NCBI GenBank assembly: GCA_025061835.1
Contig: JANXAC010000017.1
Span: 1 to 32,942, forward strand
From: Spirochaetota bacterium
GTDB lineage: Bacteria > Spirochaetota > Brevinematia > DTOW01
Length of the DNA stretch: 32,942 nucleotides
Direction: 5' to 3'
Positions 13,850 through 32,145 of the stretch are shown piece after piece. Under the pieces are notes generated by a model that did not search any database, had not been told where the DNA came from, and was given only the letters and a program-made list of their open reading frames with translations. The position numbers and the translations under genes were made by a program. Every line of letters begins with the position of its first letter. Position 1 is the stretch's first letter.

Positions 13850-14944
13850 CTATTCAACATCCAGTGTCTTTACAATACCATCTTCAATATATCCTATCCT
13901 TATCTTTCCTTGGTAGGTTATAAAGTCAGCATACTTAAAAGGTCCATAATTATTCGGTTCTACAAAGATATACCAGTTGTCATTACTTTTGTATTTAAAT
14001 ACAAGTTTGTCATTAATAGTCAAGTGTTTTGTTATGTTTTCATAAATTCCGTATTCTATATCGTAGTATATTTTGTATCCATTACTAACCTTTGATAGTA
14101 TTAGGTATTTACCGTTCTTTTCTTCTAGTTTTACTAATATTCCATCCACTACAAAGTTTGAGTTAGCGTTGCTTATAAGAGTATAGTTTGAGTTTGTGAA
14201 AATTAGTGTAATTCCTCTATCTGAAACTATCAGGTTGTATATGTTGGGTTCTAGTTTTTCGGTGGGGTGTAGAAACCAATTTCTCCCAATTCTATAGGCA
14301 AAACTGAATTGGGTTTCGTTTGCGAATGATAGTGGTGGTATAACATTACCAAATCCTACATAATCTCCTTCGTTAATCTTTAGATTGTGATTTTTACCAT
14401 TTACATAGACAAAGTAGAAAGTATTGTCCTGTTGAGAGAATGAAAGGTTGTATGCGAAGTCATAAGGTCCATAATCTCTTCCGTTAACGTTAACATAAAA
14501 TTTACCACCAACAACATTCGTTCCATCAAATGTTCCACCTACATTGTATATGAAAGCGACAGTTGTTCCGTCTTTAGATTGTTCAAACTCGGATACATAA
14601 CTATAGTATCCAAAGGTTCTATCACCTACTCTGATTGACCAGCCTAGTGTAGGCTTAAACCCAACAACATAAGTTCTTCCATCCTTTAAGAACCCAAAAT
14701 CAGTTATTAGCATATAACTACCTATTGTGTTGGTTGATGTTGATACAAAAATTGCTTTTCTTTGAAAACTTCTTATTAGTTTCTCAAACGAATAAACATT
14801 AACAGTCTCATTTGAATAATATGCTACAGCAAAATCACCATTAGGTCCTAGTTTTATGTCTATTAGTTCAACATTCCTAAAGTCATTTCTTGAGCAAGAA
14901 CTTAAGAGTATTAGGAATGCTATTACTAAAATCACTATTCTCAT
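13850..14944 (-). CDS. Lipoprotein of unknown function, probably beta-propeller-like
   Basis: This 364-residue protein has a lipoprotein signal peptide (hydrophobic residues 2-15, lipobox LSSC with C17). I do not recognise a named family. The mature part is beta-rich with recurring modules resembling a propeller or repeat-strand protein: GPNGDFAVAYYSNE, DGTTVAFIYN, YVNGRDYGPYDFAY, FYFVYVNGKN and EPNNYGPFKYADF. The repeated Gly-Pro-[FY] turns suggest blades. It is divergent from the LTD lipoprotein gene and the ATG has no visible Shine-Dalgarno site. It is probably anchored in the periplasm or on the outer membrane. The 154-bp gap before it on the other side (13696-13849) contains no convincing gene. 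Confidence 0.7.
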   Translation of the reverse strand: MRIVILVIAFLILLSSCSRNDFRNVELIDIKLGPNGDFAVAYYSNETVNVYSFEKLIRSFQRKAIFVSTSTNTIGSYMLITDFGFLKDGRTYVVGFKPTLGWSIRVGDRTFGYYSYVSEFEQSKDGTTVAFIYNVGGTFDGTNVVGGKFYVNVNGRDYGPYDFAYNLSFSQQDNTFYFVYVNGKNHNLKINEGDYVGFGNVIPPLSFANETQFSFAYRIGRNWFLHPTEKLEPNIYNLIVSDRGITLIFTNSNYTLISNANSNFVVDGILVKLEEKNGKYLILSKVSNGYKIYYDIEYGIYENITKHLTINDKLVFKYKSNDNWYIFVEPNNYGPFKYADFITYQGKIRIGYIEDGIVKTLDVE

Positions 14945-15098: not shown

Positions 15099-17666
15099 AT
15101 GAAGAAAACACTTATTTTTACAATGGTTGTTGCGATACTTGCTTCGGCTACACTTTTCTATAGTTGTAGTAGGGAAGTTGCTCAACCTTCAAATAATCAG
15201 TCTCAGGTTGATGATGGTGGAAACAATAATAACAACAACAATAACAATAATAATCAGAACAATGTTTCCTATGGTCCTCTTGACCTAGTAATAACTGAGA
15301 TTAACTGGGGAGGGTCATATTCAAATGACACATCTGCTACTGCAGATGGAGAGTTTGTTGAGATAATGAATAACACTACCAACACTATAAATCTTGGTGG
15401 TTTTCAATTGAGGTATGATGGTGGGGGTAGTTTTACGAACAAGAGGGTTACACTTCCTTCTACTTTAAGTCTTGCTCCTGGTGAGTTTTTAGTTGTATTC
15501 ATAACTAATAATACTCACAATCCATACAGTTTGGTTGTTAATACAGGAACATACAAGAGGTTTTTGTGGAGTGGGATAAACTATATAGGTAATAGTGGAT
15601 TTAGGGTAGCGATAATAGCGCCGAATGGTGATGAGATAGACTTTGTTGAGACGAGGAGTGGGCAACCTGGGCAGGTTGCGATAAAGGGTAGTTCAGGGAC
15701 GCCAAAGAGGACTATGGAGAGAGTATTGCCGTTTATAAGTGGGACAAATAATAGTGCTTGGGAAGCTGCTGTGAGCAATATCAACTATGCTTATGGTGGA
15801 ACTAACAATCTTGGGACGCCTGGTGCTTCAAACTCTGTGTGGTTTGTCTTTAGAACTATATCGTTATCTACTCCTACTAATAATACAACTATAAATAAAG
15901 CACTGAATTCAACGCAGAATTTTGTATGGACGCTGACAGGTTCAGGAAGTTCATATTCATCGTATATACTAGTATTCACTACTAATAACCAAGTATTTAC
16001 GAATATATCAGTGAATGCTACTAACACTAATATAAACATCCTCGCATTCCCAGTAGAAACCTATAAGTGGTTTGTTCTAGGAGTATCTGGTGGTATAACT
16101 AACTCTTCAACCGGCACGAATACACTAATAATTACCAACTTTGGTAATATAACATTAACATCACCTCCTGACAATGATATTCACAACATAGCGATAGATG
16201 GTAATAACATTAGTTTCAGTTGGTCCTACAGTCCTTTAGGGTCTTTACACATAGCGAATGTGTATTTACTTGATTCTAGTGATAATCCTGTTAGGTCAAA
16301 TATGAATGTATCTTCAACTAGTTCAAGTATTAACATTTCAACTCTGCCTTATGGTGATTACAAGTGGTATGTCATGGCTTCAAATACTAACTCTGCTCTA
16401 GTAGTGTATTCCACAACTAATAATATTAAGATAACTAATTACGCTTCTGTTGGTTTGACATCACCTTCAGACAATTATACCAATAACATAGTAGAAAATG
16501 GAACTACCATAATCTTCTCTTGGGCATATTCACCTACTGCTGCTTTCAATCAAGCTAATGTTTATGTTTTGGACAGTATGAATAATGTTGTTGCTTCTGT
16601 AACTGGTTTAACTACAACTTCTTGGAGTACAAGCATACCAAATGTAGGTGTGTATAATTGGTATGTTCTCGCTACGAATACTTCTACAGGAATGTACTCG
16701 TATTCATCTACAAACACCATATATGTTACGAATTTTGGTAGCATATCTCTAGTATCCTATCCTACCAACAATCACAGACACAACATACTATCTGATGGAA
16801 ATAGTATATCACTCTCCTGGAGCTACACTCCAGCAGGTGCGTTCAATCAAGCAACTGTCTATATACTGAACGCAGTGAATAATACTATTGCTATGTCAAC
16901 TAATGTTAATACAACTAATCCTTCTATAGACCTATCTTCACTACCAAGTGGTAGATATAGATGGTTTGTAATGGCAACTAACACAACCTACGGTATATCC
17001 GCATACACTCCTACGAACAACATAAGTGTGTATAGGATATCTAATATATACAGTGGTGTATTCTTCTCTGAAATAAGCTGGGCTGGATATAGGATTTCTT
17101 CAACAAGTGTTATTGGTGATGGTGAATTCATTGAACTTTACAATACCAATTCTTACGATATTAATCTCAATGGTTGGACATTATCGTATCTGAATAATAC
17201 ATATGGCGCTAATAGGAATTACAAAATAACTAACGACTTAATAATAAGAGCAAATTCAATATTGCTTCTACTCAATGCTACCTCAAATACAAATTATCTG
17301 AATATGAACAACATAGAAGATTACTACTTCTATACTAATGTTGGTAATGTTATAGCTAATGGTGGTTTTGTCTTCTGGCTGTGGTCGGTTAGTGGTGGTG
17401 TTACGAATGTATCTGATCATGTTATAGCAACTACTAGTGGAACAAATACCTTTACTCCTGCTGGTGCTAATACACCACCTCTGTTTTCAACAAACGGTGG
17501 TTTTGCACCCATAGGTTCTTCTTCTGGAACGAATATTTCTATGGTGAGAACTAATTTCATATATGCTCCTACAAATGCTACACTATGGAGACAGGCTACT
17601 AATGCTACTAATCTAATAAATGGTGCTCAGGATCATACGAGAGCAACCCCTGGAGTATTGTATTAA
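15099..17666 (+). CDS. Large lipoprotein with two lamin-tail domains and four Ig-like repeats
   Basis: This 855-residue surface or periplasmic lipoprotein has signal residues 1-22 and a relaxed lipobox FYSC with C23. An 11-Asn run (42-52) forms a flexible tether. The first lamin-tail domain (LTD, about 61-245) starts LVITEINWGGS and ends GTPGAS. Four repeats of about 98 residues follow (251-347, 348-447, 448-545, 546-645), each with a TSP-type strand, an FSWSYSP segment, a YKWYV[ML]A strand and a closing ITN, and read as Ig/FN3-like modules. The second LTD (about 652-855) starts FSEISWAGY and ends RATPG. No catalytic motif is seen. AGGAGG precedes the ATG and a strong terminator follows the stop. 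LTDs occur in secreted bacterial nucleases and adhesins, and binding or display is the likely role. Confidence 0.85.
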   Translation: MKKTLIFTMVVAILASATLFYSCSREVAQPSNNQSQVDDGGNNNNNNNNNNNQNNVSYGPLDLVITEINWGGSYSNDTSATADGEFVEIMNNTTNTINLGGFQLRYDGGGSFTNKRVTLPSTLSLAPGEFLVVFITNNTHNPYSLVVNTGTYKRFLWSGINYIGNSGFRVAIIAPNGDEIDFVETRSGQPGQVAIKGSSGTPKRTMERVLPFISGTNNSAWEAAVSNINYAYGGTNNLGTPGASNSVWFVFRTISLSTPTNNTTINKALNSTQNFVWTLTGSGSSYSSYILVFTTNNQVFTNISVNATNTNINILAFPVETYKWFVLGVSGGITNSSTGTNTLIITNFGNITLTSPPDNDIHNIAIDGNNISFSWSYSPLGSLHIANVYLLDSSDNPVRSNMNVSSTSSSINISTLPYGDYKWYVMASNTNSALVVYSTTNNIKITNYASVGLTSPSDNYTNNIVENGTTIIFSWAYSPTAAFNQANVYVLDSMNNVVASVTGLTTTSWSTSIPNVGVYNWYVLATNTSTGMYSYSSTNTIYVTNFGSISLVSYPTNNHRHNILSDGNSISLSWSYTPAGAFNQATVYILNAVNNTIAMSTNVNTTNPSIDLSSLPSGRYRWFVMATNTTYGISAYTPTNNISVYRISNIYSGVFFSEISWAGYRISSTSVIGDGEFIELYNTNSYDINLNGWTLSYLNNTYGANRNYKITNDLIIRANSILLLLNATSNTNYLNMNNIEDYYFYTNVGNVIANGGFVFWLWSVSGGVTNVSDHVIATTSGTNTFTPAGANTPPLFSTNGGFAPIGSSSGTNISMVRTNFIYAPTNATLWRQATNATNLINGAQDHTRATPGVLY
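15222..15254 (+). repeat. AAC/AAT trinucleotide tract encoding 11 Asn
   Basis: Eleven consecutive Asn codons (AAC and AAT mixed) sit just after the lipid-anchored N-terminus of the LTD lipoprotein. The tract is in frame, so slippage would change tether length without a frameshift. Confidence 0.8.
15849..17034 (+). repeat. Four tandem ~98-residue coding repeats
   Basis: Units begin at 15849, 16140, 16440 and 16734. They are diverged at the DNA level but share the FSWSY, ANVY[LV]LD and Y[KR]W[YF]V positions. Units 2-4 are closest; unit 1 is most diverged. Confidence 0.75.
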
Positions 17667-17673
17667 TGATCTC

Positions 17674-17706
17674 ACCGCACCTTCGGGTGCGGTTTTCTTT
17701 TTAAGT
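17674..17706 (+). terminator. Strong intrinsic terminator with UUCG tetraloop
   Basis: A perfect 8-bp stem ACCGCACC/GGTGCGGT (17674-17681 and 17686-17693) closes on the extra-stable TTCG loop and is followed by TTTTCTTTTT. It begins 8 bp after the LTD lipoprotein stop and separates it from the following operon. Confidence 0.92.
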
Positions 17707-17720
17707 TTGGATAAGCGACT

Positions 17721-19211
17721 ATGAAGAAAGTGTTTAAAATGTTTGTTATATCTCTGTTAAGTATCCTAGTATTAAATCCTCTATCTTCAGTAGCATCTAC
17801 TAACTCTCTATTGTTGGTCTTCTTTAATGATACTCACGGTAAGATACTACCTTTCAAGGATGCTTCAGGAAAGTTAGTTGGTGGTATCTCAAGAAGAGCA
17901 ACACTACTAAAAGAGATTAGAAAAACGAATAAGAATGTTTTGGTTTTTGATGCTGGAGATCTACTCACAGGTTCAATATACAGTAGTGCTTTCTACGGTG
18001 AGATTGATGTTGTTTTGATGAATGAAATGAACTACACTGCCGCAGTAGTAGGTAATCACGAACTGGACTTTGGTCTTACTAACATACTTTACCTTTCTAG
18101 AATAGCAAAATTCCCATTCCTTTCTGTGAATATGAAGGATGAAAAAGGAAATCCTATATTTCCTCAAATGGTTACAACAAACATAAATGATTTAAGGATT
18201 GCCATAGTTGGTCTCACTATATCTGATAAATCTGTTTATAATCCTATTTATCTGTCAGATATAACAATAGAAAGTGAATTAGTATCTATAACGAATTTTA
18301 TTGTCTCTCAAAAAGTCAGAGAAAAAAACGATTTGGTAATACTTGTTAGTCATACTTATTTAAGCACAAACTATAGAGTTGCTGAAACTGGACTTGTTGA
18401 TGTTATCCTTTCTGGACACGACCATGCCTTGACATCAAGGAGAATAGGGAATACACTTGTTGCCCAAGCGTGGCAGTGGGGTGGATATGCTGGTATTGTT
18501 AGAGTTGATTTCGTTGGTAAAAACATTGTCAGTATCACAAACTACTTTATACTGATTGATGACACATTTACGAATGATGAAAAGATTGATAGCATAATAA
18601 AACAGTATGATGTCAAGTTATCCGATAAGTTCAACTCTGTTATAGCAAAGTCTGACCTCTTTTTAGATGCTTCAAAGATAAGAAGTGAATACTCGCCTCT
18701 TGGTGGTATAGTAGCGGATATTGTCGCAAGGCAGTCTCAAGTTGAGATAGCAATAATAAACGCAGGTAGCGTTAGGTCAAGTGTCCAAAAGGGTAATATA
18801 ACTATAAAAGACATTTACGAACTCTATCCTTTTGACAATAATGTTGTTGTTCTAAATTTAAGAGGTAGGACTCTTAAGAAGATTATGGAGAAAGGGCTCA
18901 ACAATCGTGGTAAGGGTGCTTTTCTATACTATTCACATCCTGTTGAGGTTGTTATAACAAGTAAGAGGACAAATTATCTCTACGGTGGTGTGCCAATATA
19001 TGATGATGTTTTATATTCTGTTGCGGTTTCAGACTTTATTTACAATGGTGGTGATGGATACAACGAGTTCAAGGAAGAGGGTGTAAATGCTGTCAATACA
19101 GGTAATCCTATAAGGGATATGATCTTGTATCGCTTGAGTAGTGTAGGTGTCTTGGATGAGAGAAACTTTGACACTAGACCTAGAATTATCGTTGAAACAA
19201 AGAAAAGATAG
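17721..19211 (+). CDS. Secreted 5'-nucleotidase/UshA-family metallophosphatase
   Basis: This 496-residue exported enzyme has a signal peptide (about 1-26, ending SSVAS). The N-terminal metallophosphatase domain shows the complete metal set: D37/H39 in NDTHG, D77/D80 in FDAGD, N112/H113 in GNHELDFG, VSHTYL and SGHDHA. The C-terminal 5'-nucleotidase domain has INAGSVRSS, the LYPFDNNVVVLNLRG segment and the substrate-binding FIYNGGDGY. Such enzymes release phosphate from nucleotides, or from 2',3'-cyclic nucleotides, outside the cytoplasm; the precise substrate is not known. It is the first gene of a five-gene unit with 1-12 bp gaps. No clear Shine-Dalgarno site precedes the ATG. Confidence 0.9.
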   Translation: MKKVFKMFVISLLSILVLNPLSSVASTNSLLLVFFNDTHGKILPFKDASGKLVGGISRRATLLKEIRKTNKNVLVFDAGDLLTGSIYSSAFYGEIDVVLMNEMNYTAAVVGNHELDFGLTNILYLSRIAKFPFLSVNMKDEKGNPIFPQMVTTNINDLRIAIVGLTISDKSVYNPIYLSDITIESELVSITNFIVSQKVREKNDLVILVSHTYLSTNYRVAETGLVDVILSGHDHALTSRRIGNTLVAQAWQWGGYAGIVRVDFVGKNIVSITNYFILIDDTFTNDEKIDSIIKQYDVKLSDKFNSVIAKSDLFLDASKIRSEYSPLGGIVADIVARQSQVEIAIINAGSVRSSVQKGNITIKDIYELYPFDNNVVVLNLRGRTLKKIMEKGLNNRGKGAFLYYSHPVEVVITSKRTNYLYGGVPIYDDVLYSVAVSDFIYNGGDGYNEFKEEGVNAVNTGNPIRDMILYRLSSVGVLDERNFDTRPRIIVETKKR

Positions 19212-19222
19212 GAGGTTAAGTT

Positions 19223-20863
19223 ATGATAAAAAGATACTTTCAGGCTTTAAGTCAGTTTGACAAAATTAAACTAATCTCTGTAGGTAGAGTGAGTGATAAA
19301 AAGTTGAATCTATCTACTCTTGTAGCAAGTATCAAGTGGATTGTTGGTGGAGTAATGACGCTGGTTTTGATACTCAACGCAACACTTTTTGCGAATACAA
19401 ACTTTGTAAAGGATGTCAAGATTGGCGCTTACTTGAATAATAGTTTCTACTACTTCAACAATGGAGATTTGAGAGCTCTTGATAATAGAAGTGTAACGAC
19501 AGTTGAGAATACCGACGATGCGGTTGGGATTGTATATTCTAGAGTTGGAGTTGAGATAGGTTTGAATGTTTATGAGACCATAGACTTCTACTTGAATGCT
19601 TACAAACCTTTCTTCTGGGGTAATGATTCTGCTGAGTATAACTCTGAAGGCAACTCCATATTCCTAAAGGAAGCGAATATGAATATCGGACTCTACAGAT
19701 ATGAGAAGATTTCTTATCTTGACTTAAAGGTAGGAAGACAGTTCTACTCAATAAATACAACTAGATTTAAGAATTTTGTATTAAAAGACATACTTGATGC
19801 TCTGATAGTGAAGTTTGGTTATAGTATCTTTGGGTTTGAGTTAGGTTTTGATTTCTTCTCAATGAATAGCCCTGCTGAAGGTGTTTATATACTAAAAGAT
19901 GATAGGCATCCTTACACTGTTAGGTATTTTGACGGTGATGTAAATACTTATAAGTTATTTACAACACTATCCTTAAGTTTATCAAACGATTTTATAAAGG
20001 ATAGTTTGAGTAAGGTTTATTTCATTTTCGCTAGGATAGGTGCGATGGGTGAGAGTCCTAATCAAGGTGGTTGGGAGATAACTAGGGGTGGTGCTGAAGG
20101 AAACTTTGCTGATAACGATTTTGCTTTAGTTGGTGGTTTGTCTTCCTATTTTGATTTTGAACTAGTATCTTTTATGGTAGAGTTTGCTCTTTCATACGGG
20201 ATTGATAGAAAGCATAGAACTTTTCCTAATGTTGAGACATTCGGTTTTCTTGGATATTTAGGAGTTGAGTTTGTCTCTGATGTTTTCAAGGCTGGGCTTG
20301 ATGGATTGTATGTTAGTAGTGCTAACACTGATAGGAATGGAAACTACATAAATTATGGTTTTATCTCAATGAAGGGTGATAGAGTAGGAGGAATGTTATT
20401 CAGTAAATACTATGGAAACTATCCTAGTGCTATTGTGAATTATCAGGGTATAGTGTTTAAACCTTTTGGACTACACAGGTCATCTCCTACCGCTATGGGG
20501 AGTGCTAAAGTTGGTATAGAAGACTTGAATATTCTGTCATTTTCAAAAGATCCAAATAGCAATGGTCTTGGATTGATGGTTGAGTTTTACGCATACCTTG
20601 ATACTTCTCAATCTTCTGCAAACCTTAATGCAAGTGGGTTAAGGATTGATGTTTATGACCAGAAGAGGTTTGGTAAGTTTATGGCTACTGAACTCAATGT
20701 GATAGGTAAGTATAAGTTCTACAACGGAAGTATGGAAACAGGTATAAATTTTGGTTGGCTTTTACCTTTTGATTTCTATAGCATACCTGTTAGCATCCCT
20801 AAAGCGCCTTATGGATTGTATGACTTTATTGGGTTTGAAGTTTTCTTGAACACACGAATATAG
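19223..20863 (+). CDS. Predicted outer-membrane beta-barrel protein
   Basis: No named family is recognised in this 546-residue protein. An unusually long N-region (1-36, basic) precedes a hydrophobic signal segment (about 37-60: WIVGGVMTLVLILNATLFA) with a likely cleavage near LFANT. The mature part is composed of alternating amphipathic strands separated by Gly/Asn/Asp turns (VKIGAYLNNSFYYF, VGVEIGLNVYETIDFYLNAY, LDLKVGRQF, FGFELGFDFF and so on). It ends IGFEVFLNTRI, similar to barrel closing strands although the last residue is Ile. GGAGG precedes the ATG. A porin- or channel-like role is inferred. Its place 11 bp after a nucleotidase makes nucleoside or phosphate passage attractive but unproven. 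Confidence 0.7.
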   Translation: MIKRYFQALSQFDKIKLISVGRVSDKKLNLSTLVASIKWIVGGVMTLVLILNATLFANTNFVKDVKIGAYLNNSFYYFNNGDLRALDNRSVTTVENTDDAVGIVYSRVGVEIGLNVYETIDFYLNAYKPFFWGNDSAEYNSEGNSIFLKEANMNIGLYRYEKISYLDLKVGRQFYSINTTRFKNFVLKDILDALIVKFGYSIFGFELGFDFFSMNSPAEGVYILKDDRHPYTVRYFDGDVNTYKLFTTLSLSLSNDFIKDSLSKVYFIFARIGAMGESPNQGGWEITRGGAEGNFADNDFALVGGLSSYFDFELVSFMVEFALSYGIDRKHRTFPNVETFGFLGYLGVEFVSDVFKAGLDGLYVSSANTDRNGNYINYGFISMKGDRVGGMLFSKYYGNYPSAIVNYQGIVFKPFGLHRSSPTAMGSAKVGIEDLNILSFSKDPNSNGLGLMVEFYAYLDTSQSSANLNASGLRIDVYDQKRFGKFMATELNVIGKYKFYNGSMETGINFGWLLPFDFYSIPVSIPKAPYGLYDFIGFEVFLNTRI

Positions 20864-20873
20864 GAGTGTAGTT

Positions 20874-22388
20874 ATGATGAGGATGACTTTTTTGCTATTG
20901 TTGTTCATCATAACCTCCTGTAATATGTTGAATGTGTCTGAACCACAGTTGAATTTCTACGATGAGATTGATTTTGGTATTACTAATGAAGGGTATGTTA
21001 TAGGATTTCTAGACAAAGCAAAAAGTAGTGCTTATGTGTCTCTATACTCTCTTACTCCTAGTATTGCTTCCAAGGTGAATAGTTTAATTCAGAGGGGTGT
21101 GAGAGTAAGAGTTTTGATTGACAATCTTGGGTCTCCGAGTGGTGTTAATACGAGTGTTTTGGTTTCAGGTAATGTAAATGGAGATATGAGTGCAAACTTC
21201 GTTGTGATTGATGGAATTGAGAGTTTAGTTTTATCTACTCATTCTGTAACCAATCAGTTTTTCTTCGTAAGGATAAAGAATGAATATGTTGCTAATGACC
21301 TTATAAGTGAATTCAATCAGATGTATCGGTTTGGTAGGTATGAGAGTTCAAAAGTAGTTTATAACAACGCAAAGGTGTATAGGATTGCAAACAACAGTGT
21401 TAGGATAGTATTTGTTCCACAGGAAGATTTCATGAATGTGCTTGAAACATTCATTAGTCAGTCTTCTGAAAACTTTGTTTCATACTTTAGGAGTATTGAT
21501 AACAACAACCTTTATTACTACCTCTACAATTCCGTTAGATATAGTCCCAATTCTAGGATAAATGTTGGAATAAACTTCACGAATGGCTATACGAATTACG
21601 CAGGAATACTCCAAAAAACAAGAGTCTTTAAACAGCCTATATGGTTCAATATTATGGTAAGTTCCTCTGAGTTAGAGGATGGAATTGCGCTAACTACTTT
21701 TGATTTTACAAAGAATTTGAATGTTAAGGATGGGGTGATTGTGATGTTTTATGGTCCTGTTGCTACTAGGTTAAAAGAATTTCTAACTTCGTACTTCTCT
21801 AGTGTTGAAACTACTAATCTTTCTGGAACTGCTGGTGAGATACTGACATCAGTGCCTTATACGAATATAGTTGTAAGTGAGATAAACTGGGTTGGTGCTT
21901 TTGACAACAATGGTACTAGTTATCCATACGCGGAGTTCATAGAGATTAAGAATATCTCAACGAACTATTATGATATATCGGGTTATAGTATTGTAATAAC
22001 CAATGCTAATAATCCAACTTCTCCAACGGTTATAGGGATACCTGGTGGAACAATACTACCGCCCGGTAGTTTTCTTGTTATAGGAAGGAAGAATTATGTT
22101 CCAAATGCTTTTAGTTACTATGATATTTTGAGTGAGGACTTGTCGCTAGTTAATTCAGGGTTTTCCGTAACTATCTTAAGTCCTTACGGTCAGACTGTTG
22201 ATATTGCTGGTAACCATACTTCATCTCCACTGGCTGGAACTACGAGTAATCCTAGGAGAACGATGGTTAGAAAATTAGATGTAATTGATCATGGATACCT
22301 TTCAACAAGTTGGTATAATGCCACTAATAAGTTAAATATAAATCCAAACTATATTAGTAATACTTTCGCAACTCCGGGAGGTGATTAG
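20874..22388 (+). CDS. Lipoprotein with inactivated PLD-like fold and C-terminal lamin-tail domain
   Basis: This 504-residue lipoprotein (lipobox ITSC, C16) is laid out like the PLD-LTD protein at 23050. PLD half 1 has AKSSAYVSLYSL and the RGVRVRVLIDN strand, but H-x-K-x4-D is replaced by S106-A-N108-x4-D113. Half 2 has DGIALTTFDFTK aligned with the second HKD motif, but H-x-K-x4-D becomes W257-F-N259-x4-S264. It therefore cannot use PLD chemistry. The LTD (about 331-504) starts VVSEINWVG and ends TFATPGGD. A second ATG at 20877 is an equally possible start. It probably binds or scaffolds the substrate for its active paralogue. Its last codons (GGA GGT GAT) supply the ribosome-binding site of the next gene. 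Confidence 0.82.
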   Translation: MMRMTFLLLLFIITSCNMLNVSEPQLNFYDEIDFGITNEGYVIGFLDKAKSSAYVSLYSLTPSIASKVNSLIQRGVRVRVLIDNLGSPSGVNTSVLVSGNVNGDMSANFVVIDGIESLVLSTHSVTNQFFFVRIKNEYVANDLISEFNQMYRFGRYESSKVVYNNAKVYRIANNSVRIVFVPQEDFMNVLETFISQSSENFVSYFRSIDNNNLYYYLYNSVRYSPNSRINVGINFTNGYTNYAGILQKTRVFKQPIWFNIMVSSSELEDGIALTTFDFTKNLNVKDGVIVMFYGPVATRLKEFLTSYFSSVETTNLSGTAGEILTSVPYTNIVVSEINWVGAFDNNGTSYPYAEFIEIKNISTNYYDISGYSIVITNANNPTSPTVIGIPGGTILPPGSFLVIGRKNYVPNAFSYYDILSEDLSLVNSGFSVTILSPYGQTVDIAGNHTSSPLAGTTSNPRRTMVRKLDVIDHGYLSTSWYNATNKLNINPNYISNTFATPGGD

Positions 22389-22389
22389 T

Positions 22390-23037
22390 ATGGTATTCAT
22401 CTTGCTTTTTGGTTTAATGTTTCTATCATCCTGTGTAGGTGATCCAAGTATGGATTACTATAATTTTGCTGTTGCTGATTTGAGGTCTGAAGTTGCTGTT
22501 ACTGAAATACACTGGGCTGGTAGTGTAGATAGTTTTGGTAACTCTTATGATCTTGATAACTTTATTGAAATAAGAAACTTCTATGTTGGTGATGTTGATG
22601 TAAGTTTTTGGAATGTTATAATAGAAGATGTTTATGGTTTTAGACAGGTTATAACGATACCATCAAATACTATTCTGAAAAGTGGGCAGGTTTATACTAT
22701 CGGTAGGACTACCAATCATGCGTTTTCCTACTTTGACCTAATTTACGACAATCTACTTATACCTACTAGGAATCTCAAGATAACGATAAAGGATGGTTCT
22801 GGTAAGGTTATAGATAATGTGGATTTGACACTTTTTGATTTTATGGTTGCTGGATACAAACTACCAAGGTTGAGAAAGTCAATGGTTAGGAAGATAGGGT
22901 TCTTCGGTATAGAAAGAGGTGATAATGTTGATAACTGGAGAAGTTATGCTCTACCTGTTACTACTACAAATGTGAGGACTAATTTTTATGTAAACACATT
23001 GTGCTCTCCGGGACAAATTTTAACAGGTGAGTTTTAG
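22390..23037 (+). CDS. Small lamin-tail-domain lipoprotein
   Basis: This 215-residue lipoprotein has signal residues 1-14 and lipobox LSSC (C15). The mature protein is essentially one LTD: VAVTEIHWAGS, DNFIEIRNF, ITIPSNTILKSGQVYTIGR, then KSMVRKIG and the closing CSPG. The start is set at ATG 22390 because GGGAGGTGAT sits 4-7 bases upstream. A GTG at 22381 in the same frame overlaps that site and would add three residues. It begins 1 bp after the stop of the inactive PLD-LTD gene, so the two are coupled. No catalytic residues are apparent. It may act as a free binding module for the same ligand as the LTDs of its neighbours. Confidence 0.85.
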   Translation: MVFILLFGLMFLSSCVGDPSMDYYNFAVADLRSEVAVTEIHWAGSVDSFGNSYDLDNFIEIRNFYVGDVDVSFWNVIIEDVYGFRQVITIPSNTILKSGQVYTIGRTTNHAFSYFDLIYDNLLIPTRNLKITIKDGSGKVIDNVDLTLFDFMVAGYKLPRLRKSMVRKIGFFGIERGDNVDNWRSYALPVTTTNVRTNFYVNTLCSPGQILTGEF

Positions 23038-23049
23038 GGAGGTGATTCT

Positions 23050-24726
23050 ATGAGAAGATTATTTTGGGTTATAGTTCTTCTTTTGAGTGTTTATGGTTGT
23101 AATGTTATAAACCTTGATACATCACAACCTAGCGAGAGTGATTGGCCAAAGTATGTGAAGGTTTATTTCACCAAACCTGGAACGAGTCAGGACACGGAGG
23201 AGGATTCTCTTATACAACAGAGAATAATTGAAGCGATAAACGGAGCAAAAGAGAGTGTAGATGTGTGTATTTATGAACTTTCTTATGAACCTCTATACAA
23301 GGCTATTGTTAATGCTTACAAGAGGGGTATCAGAGTAAGGATGGTTGGTGATATAAACAATGTGAATTATTCAGGATATAGGGAGCTTATGAGAAATAAT
23401 GTGCCAATGGTTTTAGGAAATAACGAGAAGATAATGCACAACAAGATAATAATAATTGACAATGAACTTGTGATAACGGGGTCTGCAAACTTTACGGAAA
23501 CAGGTTTCTTTAAAAATAATGAAAATGTGGTCTTTATAGAATCAAAGGAAGTTGCTGATTACTACAGGAGAGAGATTGAAAATATGTTTTACAATAATGC
23601 TTTTGGTCTTGACAAAGTAGGATTTACGAACTTTCACAGTAATACCTTTAGACTAGGAAAAACAGATATTAAGATATTATTTTCACCTTATGTTAATGAT
23701 TATGGTCAAATGACGGTGGATAAGGTTTATATTTCATACATAACGAATGCTAAAAGGTCAATATACTTTTCAATATTTTCTTTCACTCATCCGGATATTG
23801 CTTCAAATATGATATATATGGCTACGAATAAGGGAATAAAGTTGTATGGTGTTTTTGACAAGAGTTGGCATACTGGAAATGAGTACTCTGTTCATCACTG
23901 GTTCATAGATGCCGGTTTGAATGTTAAGTATGATGGTAATGAAAACACGCTTACCTCTACTTACAGTGGTGGTAAAAATCATAACAAATACATAATAATA
24001 GACCCAGAGACTGATGAAGGTGTTGTTTTGACAGGGTCAATGAACTTTTCAAAGGCTGCTAGCACCGATGGTAATGACGAAAATATCGTAATAATAAAGG
24101 ATAAGGTTATTCCTAAGATATACTTGAGTAATTTTGTTTATCTTTATTCAATAGGTAAGCATCCTACAAGGGATTTAAGCGGAGATAGGGGGAATCAGGG
24201 TGATGTATGGATAAACGAGATAAACTGGCCTGGGTCTGTGAGTGATAATGGATCAAAGTTGTATAATGACAAATTCATTGAACTTAAAAACAGAACAGGT
24301 AGAAGAATAAATATATCAGGATGGTATATTCTTGGAACTACTTACAAATCTTGGAGGATAAGGATGTTTATATTTCCCGAGGGTAGTTATATTGAGCCGA
24401 ATGGATATATAGTTGTATTCAAGAGCACTAACAATGCTTTCTATTATACAAATGCTGTTATTGATAATTTTCTATACCTTCACCATAATCAAGATCAGAA
24501 TTATGTATATCTGGTTTTGAAGGATAAGTATGGTAATGTGATAGATGTTGCTGGAGACCCATATTCACCACCTTTTGCTGGATATAGTTCTTCTTCGTTT
24601 GCTTCAATGAGGAGAGTAGGTAATGATGGAACTCTACCTTCATCTTGGGCTACCACGACTGGAAATAACTCATTCGTTAGGAGTGGTTACAAAACTAAAA
24701 CCTTCGCAACTCCGGGAACAGAGTAG
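23050..24726 (+). CDS. Lipoprotein with active-type phospholipase D/nuclease fold and lamin-tail domain
   Basis: This 558-residue lipoprotein has a signal peptide and lipobox VYGC (C17). Two complete PLD HKD motifs form one active site: H130-x-K132-x4-D137 with GSANF (144-148), and H311-x-K313-x4-D318 with GSMNF (329-333). PLD-superfamily enzymes cut phosphodiesters in DNA, RNA or phospholipids. The short motifs and overall architecture resemble secreted PLD-type nucleases more than phospholipases. The LTD (about 393-558) starts VWINEINWPGS and ends KTFATPGTE. GGAGGTGAT precedes the ATG, which lies 12 bp after the small LTD gene. It is the last gene of the unit; a methyltransferase gene converges on it 37 bp later. 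Confidence 0.9.
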   Translation: MRRLFWVIVLLLSVYGCNVINLDTSQPSESDWPKYVKVYFTKPGTSQDTEEDSLIQQRIIEAINGAKESVDVCIYELSYEPLYKAIVNAYKRGIRVRMVGDINNVNYSGYRELMRNNVPMVLGNNEKIMHNKIIIIDNELVITGSANFTETGFFKNNENVVFIESKEVADYYRREIENMFYNNAFGLDKVGFTNFHSNTFRLGKTDIKILFSPYVNDYGQMTVDKVYISYITNAKRSIYFSIFSFTHPDIASNMIYMATNKGIKLYGVFDKSWHTGNEYSVHHWFIDAGLNVKYDGNENTLTSTYSGGKNHNKYIIIDPETDEGVVLTGSMNFSKAASTDGNDENIVIIKDKVIPKIYLSNFVYLYSIGKHPTRDLSGDRGNQGDVWINEINWPGSVSDNGSKLYNDKFIELKNRTGRRINISGWYILGTTYKSWRIRMFIFPEGSYIEPNGYIVVFKSTNNAFYYTNAVIDNFLYLHHNQDQNYVYLVLKDKYGNVIDVAGDPYSPPFAGYSSSSFASMRRVGNDGTLPSSWATTTGNNSFVRSGYKTKTFATPGTE

Positions 24727-26055: not shown

Positions 26056-28224
26056 TTACTTAATTTCTTTTATTACTGTTTCTTCTTTGCCTATGATGAA
26101 TAGTTTGTTGTTGATTATGACAGATGCATTTCCAACTTCGTCATAACTCTTTACTTGGCTACCGTTGAGATTGTATAAGTATGTTCCTTGTGAGGTGGTA
26201 GCAACTATGTAGTCATTACCTACATAAGGTGTGCCTTGTAATGTTCCATTGAGAGTTATGGTATTCTCAACAGAACCATTCTTTGTTAGAATGAGTATTC
26301 TCTTGTCGTCAAACACTATTACATTATCTTTGTAGATGATAGGTAATGTGTCTTTGCTAATAGGTAGATTAACGGTAGCAGTTTCCTTACCTTTACTGAT
26401 ATTAAGTATTGTCATCTTTCCTCTCGTGTAGATGAAGACATTTTCACCGTCAGATGATACACTTGCCTTTCTTACGACGGATGAACTGAGTTGTGCTACT
26501 TTTGTGTAGCTTCCATCAGATGAGACACTATAAACTTCTCCTATCTCGTTTATAGCGATAGCCCTGTTCTTGGCTATTGCTACATCTGAGTATATGCTAC
26601 CAATCTTGACTACTTTATCTTCTCCAGTTCTTGAATCTATAATATGTAATCCATCTATTGATGGAACGAATGCTTTTTTGTCAAGAACTGCAGGTCTGCT
26701 TACAACTAGTGTGCCTTTGGTTGATTCACCAAGGTTCACAGATTGTAGAATTTTACCTTCTGTGTTTGCAATCTTGACTTGTAGGTATTCATTTTCATCC
26801 TTTGATAGCGCTACTATTATATTATCACCAAAGCCGTATGATATACCCCTTATGTTGATGTTCTTAAGGTTATCTCCGTCAAATATTGATACTCCTGAAG
26901 TGGAAGGAATAATGGATAATCTGTCGTATTCGGCCCATCTACCGTATCCGGATACAGCATTGATACCGAAGTCAAGTTTTGATATAGATGGTACTTGAGG
27001 TTCTACAATCTGAGGAGATAAACTTTCTTGAGGCTTAACCTCTTGTATAACAACATCGGTATCTTTGGCAAAACTCATTTCCTTTGAGAAGAGCACTTTA
27101 CTATCTTTCTCTGCCCTTATCTGATAATTCTTATCTGCTTCTAGGATTCTTGTAACTGGTAGCGAAGTAGCGATTTGGATGTTGTTAATGTATAAGGAAG
27201 AGTCTTTGGTTGTGTCGGTGGGGATGAAGGTTATTTTAACTGATCTGGATACAACGATCATATCTTTTGAGACTGATTTATCAAGAGATACAATATCACT
27301 TTTACTAGCCTTTGTTTCTGATATAGATACCTTCTTTGAAACTTCTTTTGCGGCTTTTGATACATCTTCAACAATCTTGTCAGGATTTTCTTTTTCAGAT
27401 ATGGCTTTTTCTATAATGCTGTCAACCTTTTCCTGTTGTTCTCGCTTGATAATAACTTGTTCTCCTTTTTCAATAGTTTTTTCTGCTACTGACTCGTATT
27501 GAGATAACTTTTCTTTGTGTGTTTCTGGTAGTTGTTCTGATATGTTTTGGACTGACTTAGATCTTACACCTACTGATACCTTACCTTCAGAGACAATAAC
27601 TTTAGTCGTTCCTTTATCATCAACTGCTACCAAGAATTTTGTTCCTCTGACAGCAGCAACTGCAGTTGATGTTCTTATCTTAAACCCATCGTTGTTTAGT
27701 TTTCCGACAGCGGATTTAACAGTTCCTTTGACGATATCCACAATCGTGTCCTTGCTACCCTTGATTGATGATATTACTTCGGATAGAGAGACTTTAGTGT
27801 TTTCACCTATCTTGACTAGTATTTTCTTGTCTATCTGAAGTTCGCATTCAGAACCTTTCTCAGTGATTATAACATCGCCTTGCTTTAGAGTATAACCAAC
27901 CTCGGCGTCTATCAAGTTCATCAGTGTCTGGATTTTTACATCTCCTAATGCCATTGATACTACTGCAGTGATTGGTTCTGGCTCAGTGATAGTTATTTCT
28001 TGATCGGCCTCCTTCTTAGCAACTTCTTCCTTGACAAATATCTTGTCTTGGAAGATCACTATTGCTCCTATCACGATAGCAATAGCGATGGAGGCAAAAA
28101 TTAATATTTTTGATAAACCTTTCATATACTTGTCCTCCTTTAAAGAAAAACTCATATTTCTTCTCACGCTTTCAAATTTACTGAAACTCAAGCTCTCTTT
28201 TAAGAGTCTATTTAAGTCTTTCAT
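26056..28224 (-). CDS. FecR-domain membrane protein with PEGA-like module and beta-propeller
   Basis: The start is set at ATG 28224 (722 residues) because AGAGGG lies just upstream; an in-frame GTG at 28272 has no such support. A short cytoplasmic N-terminus (1-35) is followed by one transmembrane helix (36-58: ILIFASIAIAIVIGAIVIF). The FecR domain (about 85-222) contains the signature TSTAVAAVRGTKF (185-197) and a preceding KGTVKSAVGKL. A Lys/Glu/Ser-rich helical linker follows (about 225-320), then a PEGA-like strand module (about 325-390). A C-terminal PQQ-like beta-propeller (about 415-722) has repeats such as GVSIFDGD, GLHIIDSRTGED and GTYLYNLNG. The large part should be extracytoplasmic. 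FecR domains bind peptidoglycan or sense surface signals. No sigma factor gene is adjacent. Confidence 0.85.
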   Translation of the reverse strand: MKDLNRLLKESLSFSKFESVRRNMSFSLKEDKYMKGLSKILIFASIAIAIVIGAIVIFQDKIFVKEEVAKKEADQEITITEPEPITAVVSMALGDVKIQTLMNLIDAEVGYTLKQGDVIITEKGSECELQIDKKILVKIGENTKVSLSEVISSIKGSKDTIVDIVKGTVKSAVGKLNNDGFKIRTSTAVAAVRGTKFLVAVDDKGTTKVIVSEGKVSVGVRSKSVQNISEQLPETHKEKLSQYESVAEKTIEKGEQVIIKREQQEKVDSIIEKAISEKENPDKIVEDVSKAAKEVSKKVSISETKASKSDIVSLDKSVSKDMIVVSRSVKITFIPTDTTKDSSLYINNIQIATSLPVTRILEADKNYQIRAEKDSKVLFSKEMSFAKDTDVVIQEVKPQESLSPQIVEPQVPSISKLDFGINAVSGYGRWAEYDRLSIIPSTSGVSIFDGDNLKNINIRGISYGFGDNIIVALSKDENEYLQVKIANTEGKILQSVNLGESTKGTLVVSRPAVLDKKAFVPSIDGLHIIDSRTGEDKVVKIGSIYSDVAIAKNRAIAINEIGEVYSVSSDGSYTKVAQLSSSVVRKASVSSDGENVFIYTRGKMTILNISKGKETATVNLPISKDTLPIIYKDNVIVFDDKRILILTKNGSVENTITLNGTLQGTPYVGNDYIVATTSQGTYLYNLNGSQVKSYDEVGNASVIINNKLFIIGKEETVIKEIK

Positions 28225-28312
28225 TTTTCCCTCTCTATATAAATATACTGTTGATCCTTTCATTTTTTGCACGGTTGTTAAATTTTTATTCTAGTATGAG
28301 ATTTAACATTAC

Positions 28313-30327: not shown

Positions 30328-32145
30328 TTACATATTCGTAACAATGTTATCTCCAGTATCGCAACCGTAAGGTGAAAAGTATGAAGGATTGTTTATAGCA
30401 TTTATGTCATTAGTTGGGTTTGGATCTCCAAACTTTTTGTAAAGATACTGTAAAGTATTAGTTATGAATTTGTTATCTCTAAGTAAATTTGGAGGCTTAT
30501 ATCCTACCTGATCTATCCCGATAGATCCAGTATTTGCTCCATCACCGCCTATGTAGCAGTTAGAGATTGCTTCGGATGTACTATTACCATTAAGTGCTAT
30601 TTGTCCTAGTATCCTTATAGAGGAGTTTACAACAGTTCCTTTGTTGTTGGTTATGTAGGAGTTAAATATCGCAAATCCAGAAAAATCCAAATTAATACCT
30701 GCTCCTTCAGAGGCTATGTTATTGAATATGCTCACATTTGATGCAGTTAGAAATTTTCCAGCAACGTATAATCCTCCACCATTGTTGTGTGATATTATAC
30801 TATTTTCTAGGAATCCTTGAGAGTAATAAGAGTGCCATGCAAAACCTCTCCCATTGTTACTACTTATAACCAGTTCAAAAATACCTGATGAGCTACGGAT
30901 ATTTGCTATACCAAAACTTTCGTTAGTAAGAGGAACTATTGAATTACTAACGATTGTAGCCTTTATACTACAATTAACAGACATATCTAAGTAGATACCT
31001 GCTCCCTCGCCTACAGAGTAGTTGTTTGATATAATGATGTTAGCAATTTCAGAGTTGATTACGCTATGTAAGTAAATACCTCCTCCTCTGGAGTGAATTG
31101 CATCGTCTGTGTTGGTGGCACTTCCACCAGCTATGTGGAAGTTCATGAGAAGAATATTGCTTATATTAGTCGCAAAAACCACATGGTATAGTTCTTTTCT
31201 AGCGTCTAGGACACTATTTCCTACAATCCTGCTAAAATCCTCGTTTAGACCACCTATTATTCTTAAGTTGTCGTTTGTTATAATAACTCCGGCGATTTCT
31301 GTATTTAGTCCGTCTCCAGGTAGGTAAGTGCCGACTTGGACAAGAATGTTAGTTTTCTGGTATTCGTATGCTCTCTGTAATCCAACCTGTATCGTTTTTA
31401 CTGGAAGGTTCTTTGATAGTCCTGTGTTTGTGTCATTTCCAGCAGTTGATACATGAATTTTGTCTAACAACACAAGTATGCTTATGTGATTTGTTCGCGA
31501 AACTCTGTTTGAAACGTCTAACGCAAACACATATATTCTATGAAGTCCTTCAGTATCAAAAATTAGATTTGTATTCCATGATTCTGTTCCATTCACTACT
31601 CCAAATCCTCCACTATCCCCGACTCTCAAAAAGACATTTGATACTTGGTAGTAACTAGTCACACTACCTGTGACGCTAACCTGGTCATTATCAAATATAG
31701 AAAGGTCGTTAGGTGATGATATAATAACAACAGGTCTTGAAAGAACAACAAATGATAAGCTTACAGTAGAAGATCTGTTTTGACTATTGTCCAAAGCGTA
31801 AGCGTATATCCTGTTAGTTCCTTCATTGGCTGTAATGTTCAGAGATATCTCATTATCTCTTCCAACTTCCACAAATCCTTGATTATTCAGTCTTAAATAC
31901 ACTGCCTTAATGCCGCTTTTATCATCCGTTGCTCGTATCACAACCCTAACGGTGTTTTGTTCAAAGACTTGACCATTAGTTGGGGATATTATTCTGACTA
32001 CGGGAGGAGTGGTATCAACTTCATTGACTTGTGAGTCTCTATTTCTAGGTATGAGATCTGATAACTTAGTGCAACTCCAAAGACCTAAGAATTGTATCAG
32101 GATGATTGAGAAAATCTTATAGTATGCTTTGCTAAACTTGGCCAT
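30328..32145 (-). CDS. Lipoprotein with two Ig-like domains and a right-handed beta-helix
   Basis: This 605-residue lipoprotein has signal residues 1-24 and a relaxed lipobox LWSC (C25). Two Ig-like domains follow (about 46-135 starting TTPPVVRIISPTNG, and 137-226), both with [FY]A[LY]D-type closing strands. A DUF1565-like entry segment (IHVSTAGNDTNTG, about 230-242, then PVKTIQVGLQRA) leads into a parallel beta-helix (about 265-560) with recurrent GGGIYL, GAGIYLD and GGGLYV turns and NS.I..N rungs. Such helices bind or cleave polysaccharides or act as adhesins; no catalytic residues could be assigned. GGAGG precedes the ATG. Export by Sec and display on the cell envelope are inferred. Confidence 0.85.
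   Translation of the reverse strand: MAKFSKAYYKIFSIILIQFLGLWSCTKLSDLIPRNRDSQVNEVDTTPPVVRIISPTNGQVFEQNTVRVVIRATDDKSGIKAVYLRLNNQGFVEVGRDNEISLNITANEGTNRIYAYALDNSQNRSSTVSLSFVVLSRPVVIISSPNDLSIFDNDQVSVTGSVTSYYQVSNVFLRVGDSGGFGVVNGTESWNTNLIFDTEGLHRIYVFALDVSNRVSRTNHISILVLLDKIHVSTAGNDTNTGLSKNLPVKTIQVGLQRAYEYQKTNILVQVGTYLPGDGLNTEIAGVIITNDNLRIIGGLNEDFSRIVGNSVLDARKELYHVVFATNISNILLMNFHIAGGSATNTDDAIHSRGGGIYLHSVINSEIANIIISNNYSVGEGAGIYLDMSVNCSIKATIVSNSIVPLTNESFGIANIRSSSGIFELVISSNNGRGFAWHSYYSQGFLENSIISHNNGGGLYVAGKFLTASNVSIFNNIASEGAGINLDFSGFAIFNSYITNNKGTVVNSSIRILGQIALNGNSTSEAISNCYIGGDGANTGSIGIDQVGYKPPNLLRDNKFITNTLQYLYKKFGDPNPTNDINAINNPSYFSPYGCDTGDNIVTNM

Follow-up and report, generated by a model that had tools for sequence, protein, structure and literature searches.

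A candidate surface nucleic-acid-processing gene cluster of Spirochaetota combining an outer-membrane barrel with active and inactive PLD-type lipoproteins

The "DNA-degradation loci" of Ca. Izemoplasmatales bring together nucleases, nucleotidases, transporters and a nuclease with a lamin-tail domain (LTD) (Wasmund et al. 2021; PMC8289736). Extracellular LTD nucleases acting on biofilm eDNA are known from Vibrio (Xds) and Shewanella (ExeM), and the LTD of Xds is dispensable for activity and for membrane association and localisation (PMC6746945, PMC6085458). NucT, a membrane-associated nuclease of the PLD superfamily, has been implicated in purine salvage and natural transformation (PMC5714352). 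Among barrel proteins, LA_2168 of Leptospira is listed as hypothetical; its fold hits are porin-like, and no function is known (PMC2387172). The literature searched, mostly outside the subscription journals, contained no description of an assembly of barrel, PLD and pseudo-PLD/LTD proteins, nor of a spirochaete outer-membrane complex that processes nucleic acid at the surface.

The window, i.e. the whole stretch of 32,942 nucleotides that was analysed, forms a single contig in a genome of 1.80 Mb. The spirochaete flagellar family FlaA was found here and in all seven relatives searched (8/8) but in none of 14 control genomes, which assigns the genome to Spirochaetota. Five plus-strand genes at 17721–24726 encode a 5'-nucleotidase, an outer-membrane barrel, a pseudo-PLD-LTD lipoprotein, an LTD lipoprotein and an active PLD-LTD lipoprotein (Table 1). 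The cluster shares with the Izemoplasmatales loci the co-location of nuclease, nucleotidase and LTD genes; it differs from them in phylum and envelope type, in having an outer-membrane barrel, in its nuclease families, and in its enzyme/pseudoenzyme pairs, which the accessible part of that paper does not report. As in Xds and ExeM, the LTD is carried by a putative nuclease predicted to be surface-associated. Xds and ExeM, however, combine the LTD with an EEP nuclease domain, to which Xds adds an OB fold, whereas the window's PLD-LTD protein has a PLD catalytic domain and a C-terminal LTD, with PLD and LTD the only domains found.

Table 1. Features of the cluster, with positions in the window.
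Feature	Coordinates	Strand	Basis
855-aa lipoprotein with two LTDs (residues about 61–184 and about 650–850)	15099..17666	+	Pfam; lipobox-like ATLFYSC read from sequence
Intrinsic-terminator-like hairpin with T-run	17674..17693	+	8-bp GC-rich stem, TTCG loop, fold z = -1.6
Secreted UshA/CD73-type 5'-nucleotidase (predicted)	17721..19211	+	Metallophos + 5_nucleotid_C; metal-ligand motifs intact
18-stranded outer-membrane beta-barrel (predicted), uncharacterised spirochaete family	19223..20863	+	Structure model
Pseudo-PLD + LTD lipoprotein	20874..22388	+	SxN for HxK in the first motif; second motif lost
Small LTD lipoprotein	22390..23037	+	ATG start; GTG 22381 alternative
Active two-HKD PLD-superfamily lipoprotein of Nuc/NucT/Zucchini nuclease type, C-terminal LTD	23050..24726	+	

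A sequence-only reading of this DNA had described the five genes as lying behind a terminator with gaps of 11, 10, 1 and 12 bp. Both the hairpin and the gaps were confirmed, the latter with the fourth gene starting at its ATG; a start at the first GTG gives an 8 bp overlap with the preceding gene. The LTDs that it assigned to the last three proteins are present in all of them, with scores below the Pfam cut-off in two (4.6e-8 and 33.8 bits, just below, in the pseudo-PLD protein; 6.7e-6 in the small lipoprotein, read as 22381–23037), and lipobox-like N-termini can be read from the three translations. That reading did not include a fourth LTD lipoprotein, encoded upstream across the hairpin and preceded by a strong AGGAGG site. 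This double-LTD gene is probably the first gene of the cluster; the congener G003 carries a copy of its product, 79% identical, at a contig end. Since the hairpin ends only 27 bp ahead of the nucleotidase ATG and no promoter-like match is listed between 17246 and 18428, the double-LTD gene may belong to the same transcript, with partial read-through and the hairpin acting as an attenuator. No regulatory RNA was matched in the window by Rfam.

Three further genes of the window were noted. Directly upstream of the cluster and divergent from it, positions 13850–14944 (minus strand) encode a 364-aa protein with a lipobox-like start and no Pfam match. The product of 26056–28272 (minus strand) is a FecR-domain protein with a C-terminal propeller-like region that resembles the Leptospira surface proteins LipL45 and Lsa33. 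A lipoprotein-like product of 30328–32145 (minus strand) combines a beta-helix-like region with Big_7 Ig domains, and the Ig portion resembles the Big_7 lipoproteins in the clusters of the family labelled f4. Elsewhere in the genome another LTD protein is encoded at G000:C20:24674-25003 (L061), where the gene runs off the contig end.

The nucleotidase contains the Metallophos (9e-12) and 5_nucleotid_C (6e-29) domains, both over the Pfam cut-off, and all its metal-ligand motifs (NDTH, DAGD, GNHE, SH and GHDH) are intact; the sequence-only reading had called it a 5'-nucleotidase-type phosphatase. Its nearest solved relatives are 5'-nucleotidases, and both domains and all metal ligands are shared with UshA and CD73, placing it in the UshA-type 5'-nucleotidase superfamily. 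From UshA itself it differs in falling below the NCBIfam equivalog cut-off (174.9 vs 600 bits) and in its operon partners. It is the only 5_nucleotid_C gene found in the genome.

The barrel protein has no Pfam match and matches no unrelated named sequence family, an outcome in favour of the sequence-only reading; its model (pLDDT 81) nevertheless forms a complete barrel of 18 strands, in which long loops alternate with short turns. Among the fold matches AlgE, the alginate exporter, ranks first (3rbh; E 9e-17, TM 0.54/0.67). Strand number and fold are shared with AlgE and OprD-type channels; the window barrel differs from them in its low identity (11%), in the absence of a Pfam match, in its net acidic inward residues and in its conserved outer loops. 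The inward-facing residues sum to net -10 in the window protein and are net acidic in most relatives, by a heuristic applied without an AlgE control; the lumen of AlgE is basic. No alginate genes occur in the cluster. The predicted acidic lumen speaks against free passage of polyanions and would fit neutral nucleosides, the binding of cations, or docking. Extracellular loops are better conserved (mean 0.50) than strands (0.43) and turns (0.21), with 22 near-invariant loop columns, a pattern unusual for porins. The protein is a distant relative of the LA_2168 family (NF047476; 19.5 vs a cut-off of 250 bits); one of its relatives (L062) exceeds that cut-off with 283.8 bits, and its gene is flanked by those of an LTD protein and an active PLD.

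The last gene of the cluster encodes two PLDc_2 domains (E 8e-44) and an LTD. Both HKD motifs are intact, as had been read from the sequence: HNKIIIIDN...GSANF (H130/K132/D137) and HNKYIIIDP...GSMNF (H311/K313/D318). In 25 relatives H130, K132, H311, K313 and D318 are invariant, and D137 is kept in 90% or more. The two intact motifs with GSxN characterise PLD-superfamily nucleases of the Nuc/NucT type, and in profile comparison the closest characterised relatives are nucleases: the active-PLD profile matches Nuc (1byr) at 1.7e-31, NucT at 4.8e-28 and Zucchini/MitoPLD at 4e-26, some 20 orders of magnitude ahead of phospholipase 7e0m (4.8e-12); PLD3 follows at 1.2e-9. With Nuc, NucT and Zucchini the protein shares the HxK(x)4D...GSxN motifs; it differs in carrying two HKD halves in one chain, in being a lipoprotein with a C-terminal LTD and in having a pseudo-PLD partner, and it scores below the NCBIfam equivalog cut-off for NucT (71.1 vs 297 bits). 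The AlphaFold model of the PLD-LTD protein (pLDDT 82.5) matches nucleases and phospholipases alike (7e0m, the ssDNA exonucleases PLD3/PLD4 with ssDNA, viral F13 and human PLD1/2); these fold matches are less discriminating than the sequence profile. The PLD domains are not basic overall, with a pI of about 6 (6.1 in the window), a value for the whole domain and not for the groove.

Other origins of the PLD gene were considered. PHROGs returned just unnamed families, and phage origin was rejected; the weak DrmC/DpdK matches in PADLOC are explained by the PLD domain held in common, and a defence origin was likewise dismissed. Outside the phylum one relative was found, on an Elusimicrobia contig, with 24% identity and without a recognisable barrel.

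The pseudo-PLD protein aligns with the active PLD region (probability 99.7% in comparison of the family with the active-PLD profile); motif 1 reads SxN...D and motif 2 is lost, in line with the inactivation noted earlier. Pairs of an active HKD/HKD PLD and a pseudo-PLD occur at 13 loci in five families (f1, f4, f13, f20 and f32), counting L051, whose active partner sits on another contig (L052). Pseudo-PLDs were counted by motif, the profile tally being set aside as inflated by LTD matches. In their motif 1 the histidine is replaced by D, S, E or Y and the lysine by N (D in one case), while the aspartate is kept. In f15, f34 and part of f32 the lipoproteins beside the barrel weakly resemble pseudo-PLDs (hhalign 93%). 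A tree places 9 of 12 pseudo-PLDs in one clade (support 0.91) and three from f20 elsewhere, an only partly clear answer as to their origin. An analogous pair occurs in f4, where the metal ligands are gone from the first of two nucleotidases (NDTH to ADTL, DAGD to DSGG, GNHE to GHHE, SH to SY and GHxH to GYGD), which keeps the substrate-domain motif and adjoins the active enzyme (L048:11272-12774, L049:7073-8572 and L050:7626-9119). The fixed loss of catalytic residues argues for a binding or structural role retained by the dead copies. As for the LTDs, the idea of a basic DNA-binding module was rejected, since most are acidic; the PLD-linked LTD of the window, with a pI of 9.0, is an exception.

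Searches with the barrel sequence reached relatives beyond its own family, elsewhere in the class and in the phylum, and of the 393 genomes of the phylum searched with a 12-sequence profile, 47 gave a barrel match. Thirty-nine barrel neighbourhoods were examined with a profile per component; families bear the labels of the search tool, the window belonging to f1. An active PLD is encoded on the same strand within 8 kb at 27/39 loci, in 19/24 genera and 9/12 families, against a chance expectation of about 1%, roughly estimated from the few PLD genes per 2–5 Mb genome and not a computed null; an LTD protein is present at 23 of the 39. Up to twelve barrel loci have no active PLD neighbour, ten of them also no LTD, and several of these are second paralogues in f20 genomes whose other copy has a PLD. 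At four f20 loci (L102, L104, L107 and L099) the second paralogue has neither PLD nor LTD neighbours, and the genomes hold, or probably hold, a full module. The Leptospira-like family f9 (L118–L122, L062) has a compact trio of overlapping or nearly overlapping genes for a 780–1065 aa LTD-type protein, an LA_2168-like barrel and a PLD. Within the genus of the window the cluster is patchy: the congener G001 (95% complete) gave no barrel or nucleotidase match, and two contigs of G003, C15 (L060) and C25 (L059), end inside the flanking LTD genes, so that there the assembly lacks the middle of the cluster, which need not mean that the genome does.

Adjacency in relatives, on which the sequence-only reading had made its case depend, thus holds in distant relatives too. 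Conserved co-occurrence, which it had proposed to check for all five families, was seen for barrel, PLD and LTD and not for the nucleotidase, which is next to the barrel in just two of 12 families (f1 and f4). The conserved core is therefore barrel, PLD and LTD, and the nucleotidase is accessory. As most relatives have the core without any nucleotidase, the set of five genes amounts to a local extension of the core module.

The richest cluster is that of f4 (G009, G012 and G013), with genes in the order DUF5689-like lipoprotein, Big_7 lipoprotein, LTD, PLD-LTD, two nucleotidases, barrel, pseudo-PLD-LTD, one or two Endonuclease I lipoproteins with REH motifs and a NupC-type nucleoside transporter. 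It unites the nuclease, nucleotidase and nucleoside transporter of the Izemoplasmatales type, whereas no CNT/Bmp-type transporter was found in the window or elsewhere in its genome. The f4 locus provides the strongest evidence for a nucleic-acid substrate. Together with its Endonuclease I, second nucleotidase and NupC, the affinity of the PLD to Nuc, NucT and Zucchini points to nucleic acid rather than phospholipid as the substrate, which is unproven. Of the two substrates offered by the sequence-only reading, the phospholipid is accordingly disfavoured.

Searches of the window's genome for nucleoside importers, covering the CNT transporter and the Bmp-type binding protein, found neither, and import of nucleosides by these two families in this organism was discarded; one PNP-family gene is present. 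PurH occurs in all 12 genomes tested, including this one, and purine auxotrophy was likewise rejected as a reason for scavenging. Scavenging is plausible in the window's organism and nutritional use is likely in f4.

The best explanation of the cluster, nuclease, pseudo-PLD, LTDs, barrel and nucleotidase together, is a spirochaete surface nucleic-acid-processing module, which we consider somewhat probable. Lipoproteins anchored in the outer membrane would hold the active PLD-type endonuclease beside its non-catalytic paralogue and LTD modules, and would probably act on or beside the dedicated barrel, whose conserved outer loops may dock lipoproteins or substrate. The nuclease would cut extracellular DNA or RNA, the 5'-nucleotidase would strip phosphate from its products, and phosphate and nucleosides could then enter, perhaps via the barrel. 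Entry through the barrel, proposed by the sequence-only reading, is unproven in view of the predicted acidic lumen and the many relatives without a nucleotidase; that interpretation as a whole is partly supported. What is observed is the domain content, the intact or lost catalytic residues, the adjacency across the phylum and the richer f4 locus; the surface location, the nucleic-acid substrate, the formation of a complex, and what crosses the barrel in which direction are inferred. In favour of the full explanation count the nucleases-first PLD profile, the f4 locus, the complete metal ligands of the nucleotidase, the neighbourhood of barrel and active PLD, the published DNA-degradation loci (PMC8289736) and the link of NucT to purine salvage (PMC5714352). 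Against it stand the missing CNT/Bmp importer, the presence of PurH, the non-basic PLD domains, the mostly acidic LTDs, the net acidic inward residues of the barrel, the phospholipase fold matches and the lack of barrel and nucleotidase matches in G001.

Most relatives' clusters have no UshA, Endonuclease I or NupC, so feeding may not be what the module is chiefly for. Barrel, PLD and pseudo-PLD/LTD proteins could instead process or bind extracellular DNA in transformation uptake, biofilm-matrix remodelling or DNA-trap defence, the nucleotidase being a later addition in a few lineages. The phylum-wide core trio fits this reading, as do the part of NucT in natural transformation (PMC5714352), the action of Xds and ExeM on biofilm eDNA, and the presence of PurH without a CNT/Bmp importer in the window's genome; yet no competence genes were recognised in the scanned part of the genes adjoining the module, the f4 cluster runs on into nucleoside uptake, and we hold it to be rather unlikely. 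It is improbable that the barrel serves as a platform for assembly or docking, placing its own lipoproteins on the surface in a Slam-type or barrel-lipoprotein manner, and not as a small-molecule channel: the well-conserved outer loops and the several lipoproteins of complete modules would suit such a platform, but the barrel loci lacking PLD and LTD neighbours would not, and the conserved loop could instead be a plug or substrate site. Processing of lipid or another phosphodiester, for example a phosphodiester-linked surface polymer that the barrel exports or imports, draws on the PLD fold matches to 7e0m and human PLD1/2 and on the match of the barrel to AlgE. It is weakened by the lead of nucleases in the sequence profile, by the nucleic-acid functions of 5'-nucleotidase, Endonuclease I and NupC, by the lack of a polymer synthase among the cluster genes scanned and by a lumen whose predicted acidity is unlike that of an anionic-polymer exporter, and appears very improbable.

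Beyond the nucleic-acid-processing module that we prefer for the window, a wider possibility is put forward tentatively and with more doubt than confidence: a previously undescribed phylum-wide surface machine, in which the conserved outer loops of the 18-stranded barrel would dock a heteromeric complex of an active PLD nuclease and a fixed pseudo-PLD on LTD lipoproteins. The machine would be designed around the pairing of enzyme and pseudoenzyme, which recurs with the nucleotidase in one family, and it would link the cutting of extracellular nucleic acid to its passage through, or capture at, the outer membrane. As far as could be tested, the assembly and the paired dead enzymes are new; each part is of a kind already known. 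At least nine families of the phylum carry the module, and one of the barrels is assigned to a family that takes its name from a Leptospira protein whose function is unknown. The module supplies a role open to testing for orphan barrels and LTD lipoproteins, which form a large family, and its fixed pairs of active and dead PLDs are a clear case in which to ask about the function of pseudoenzymes on the cell surface.
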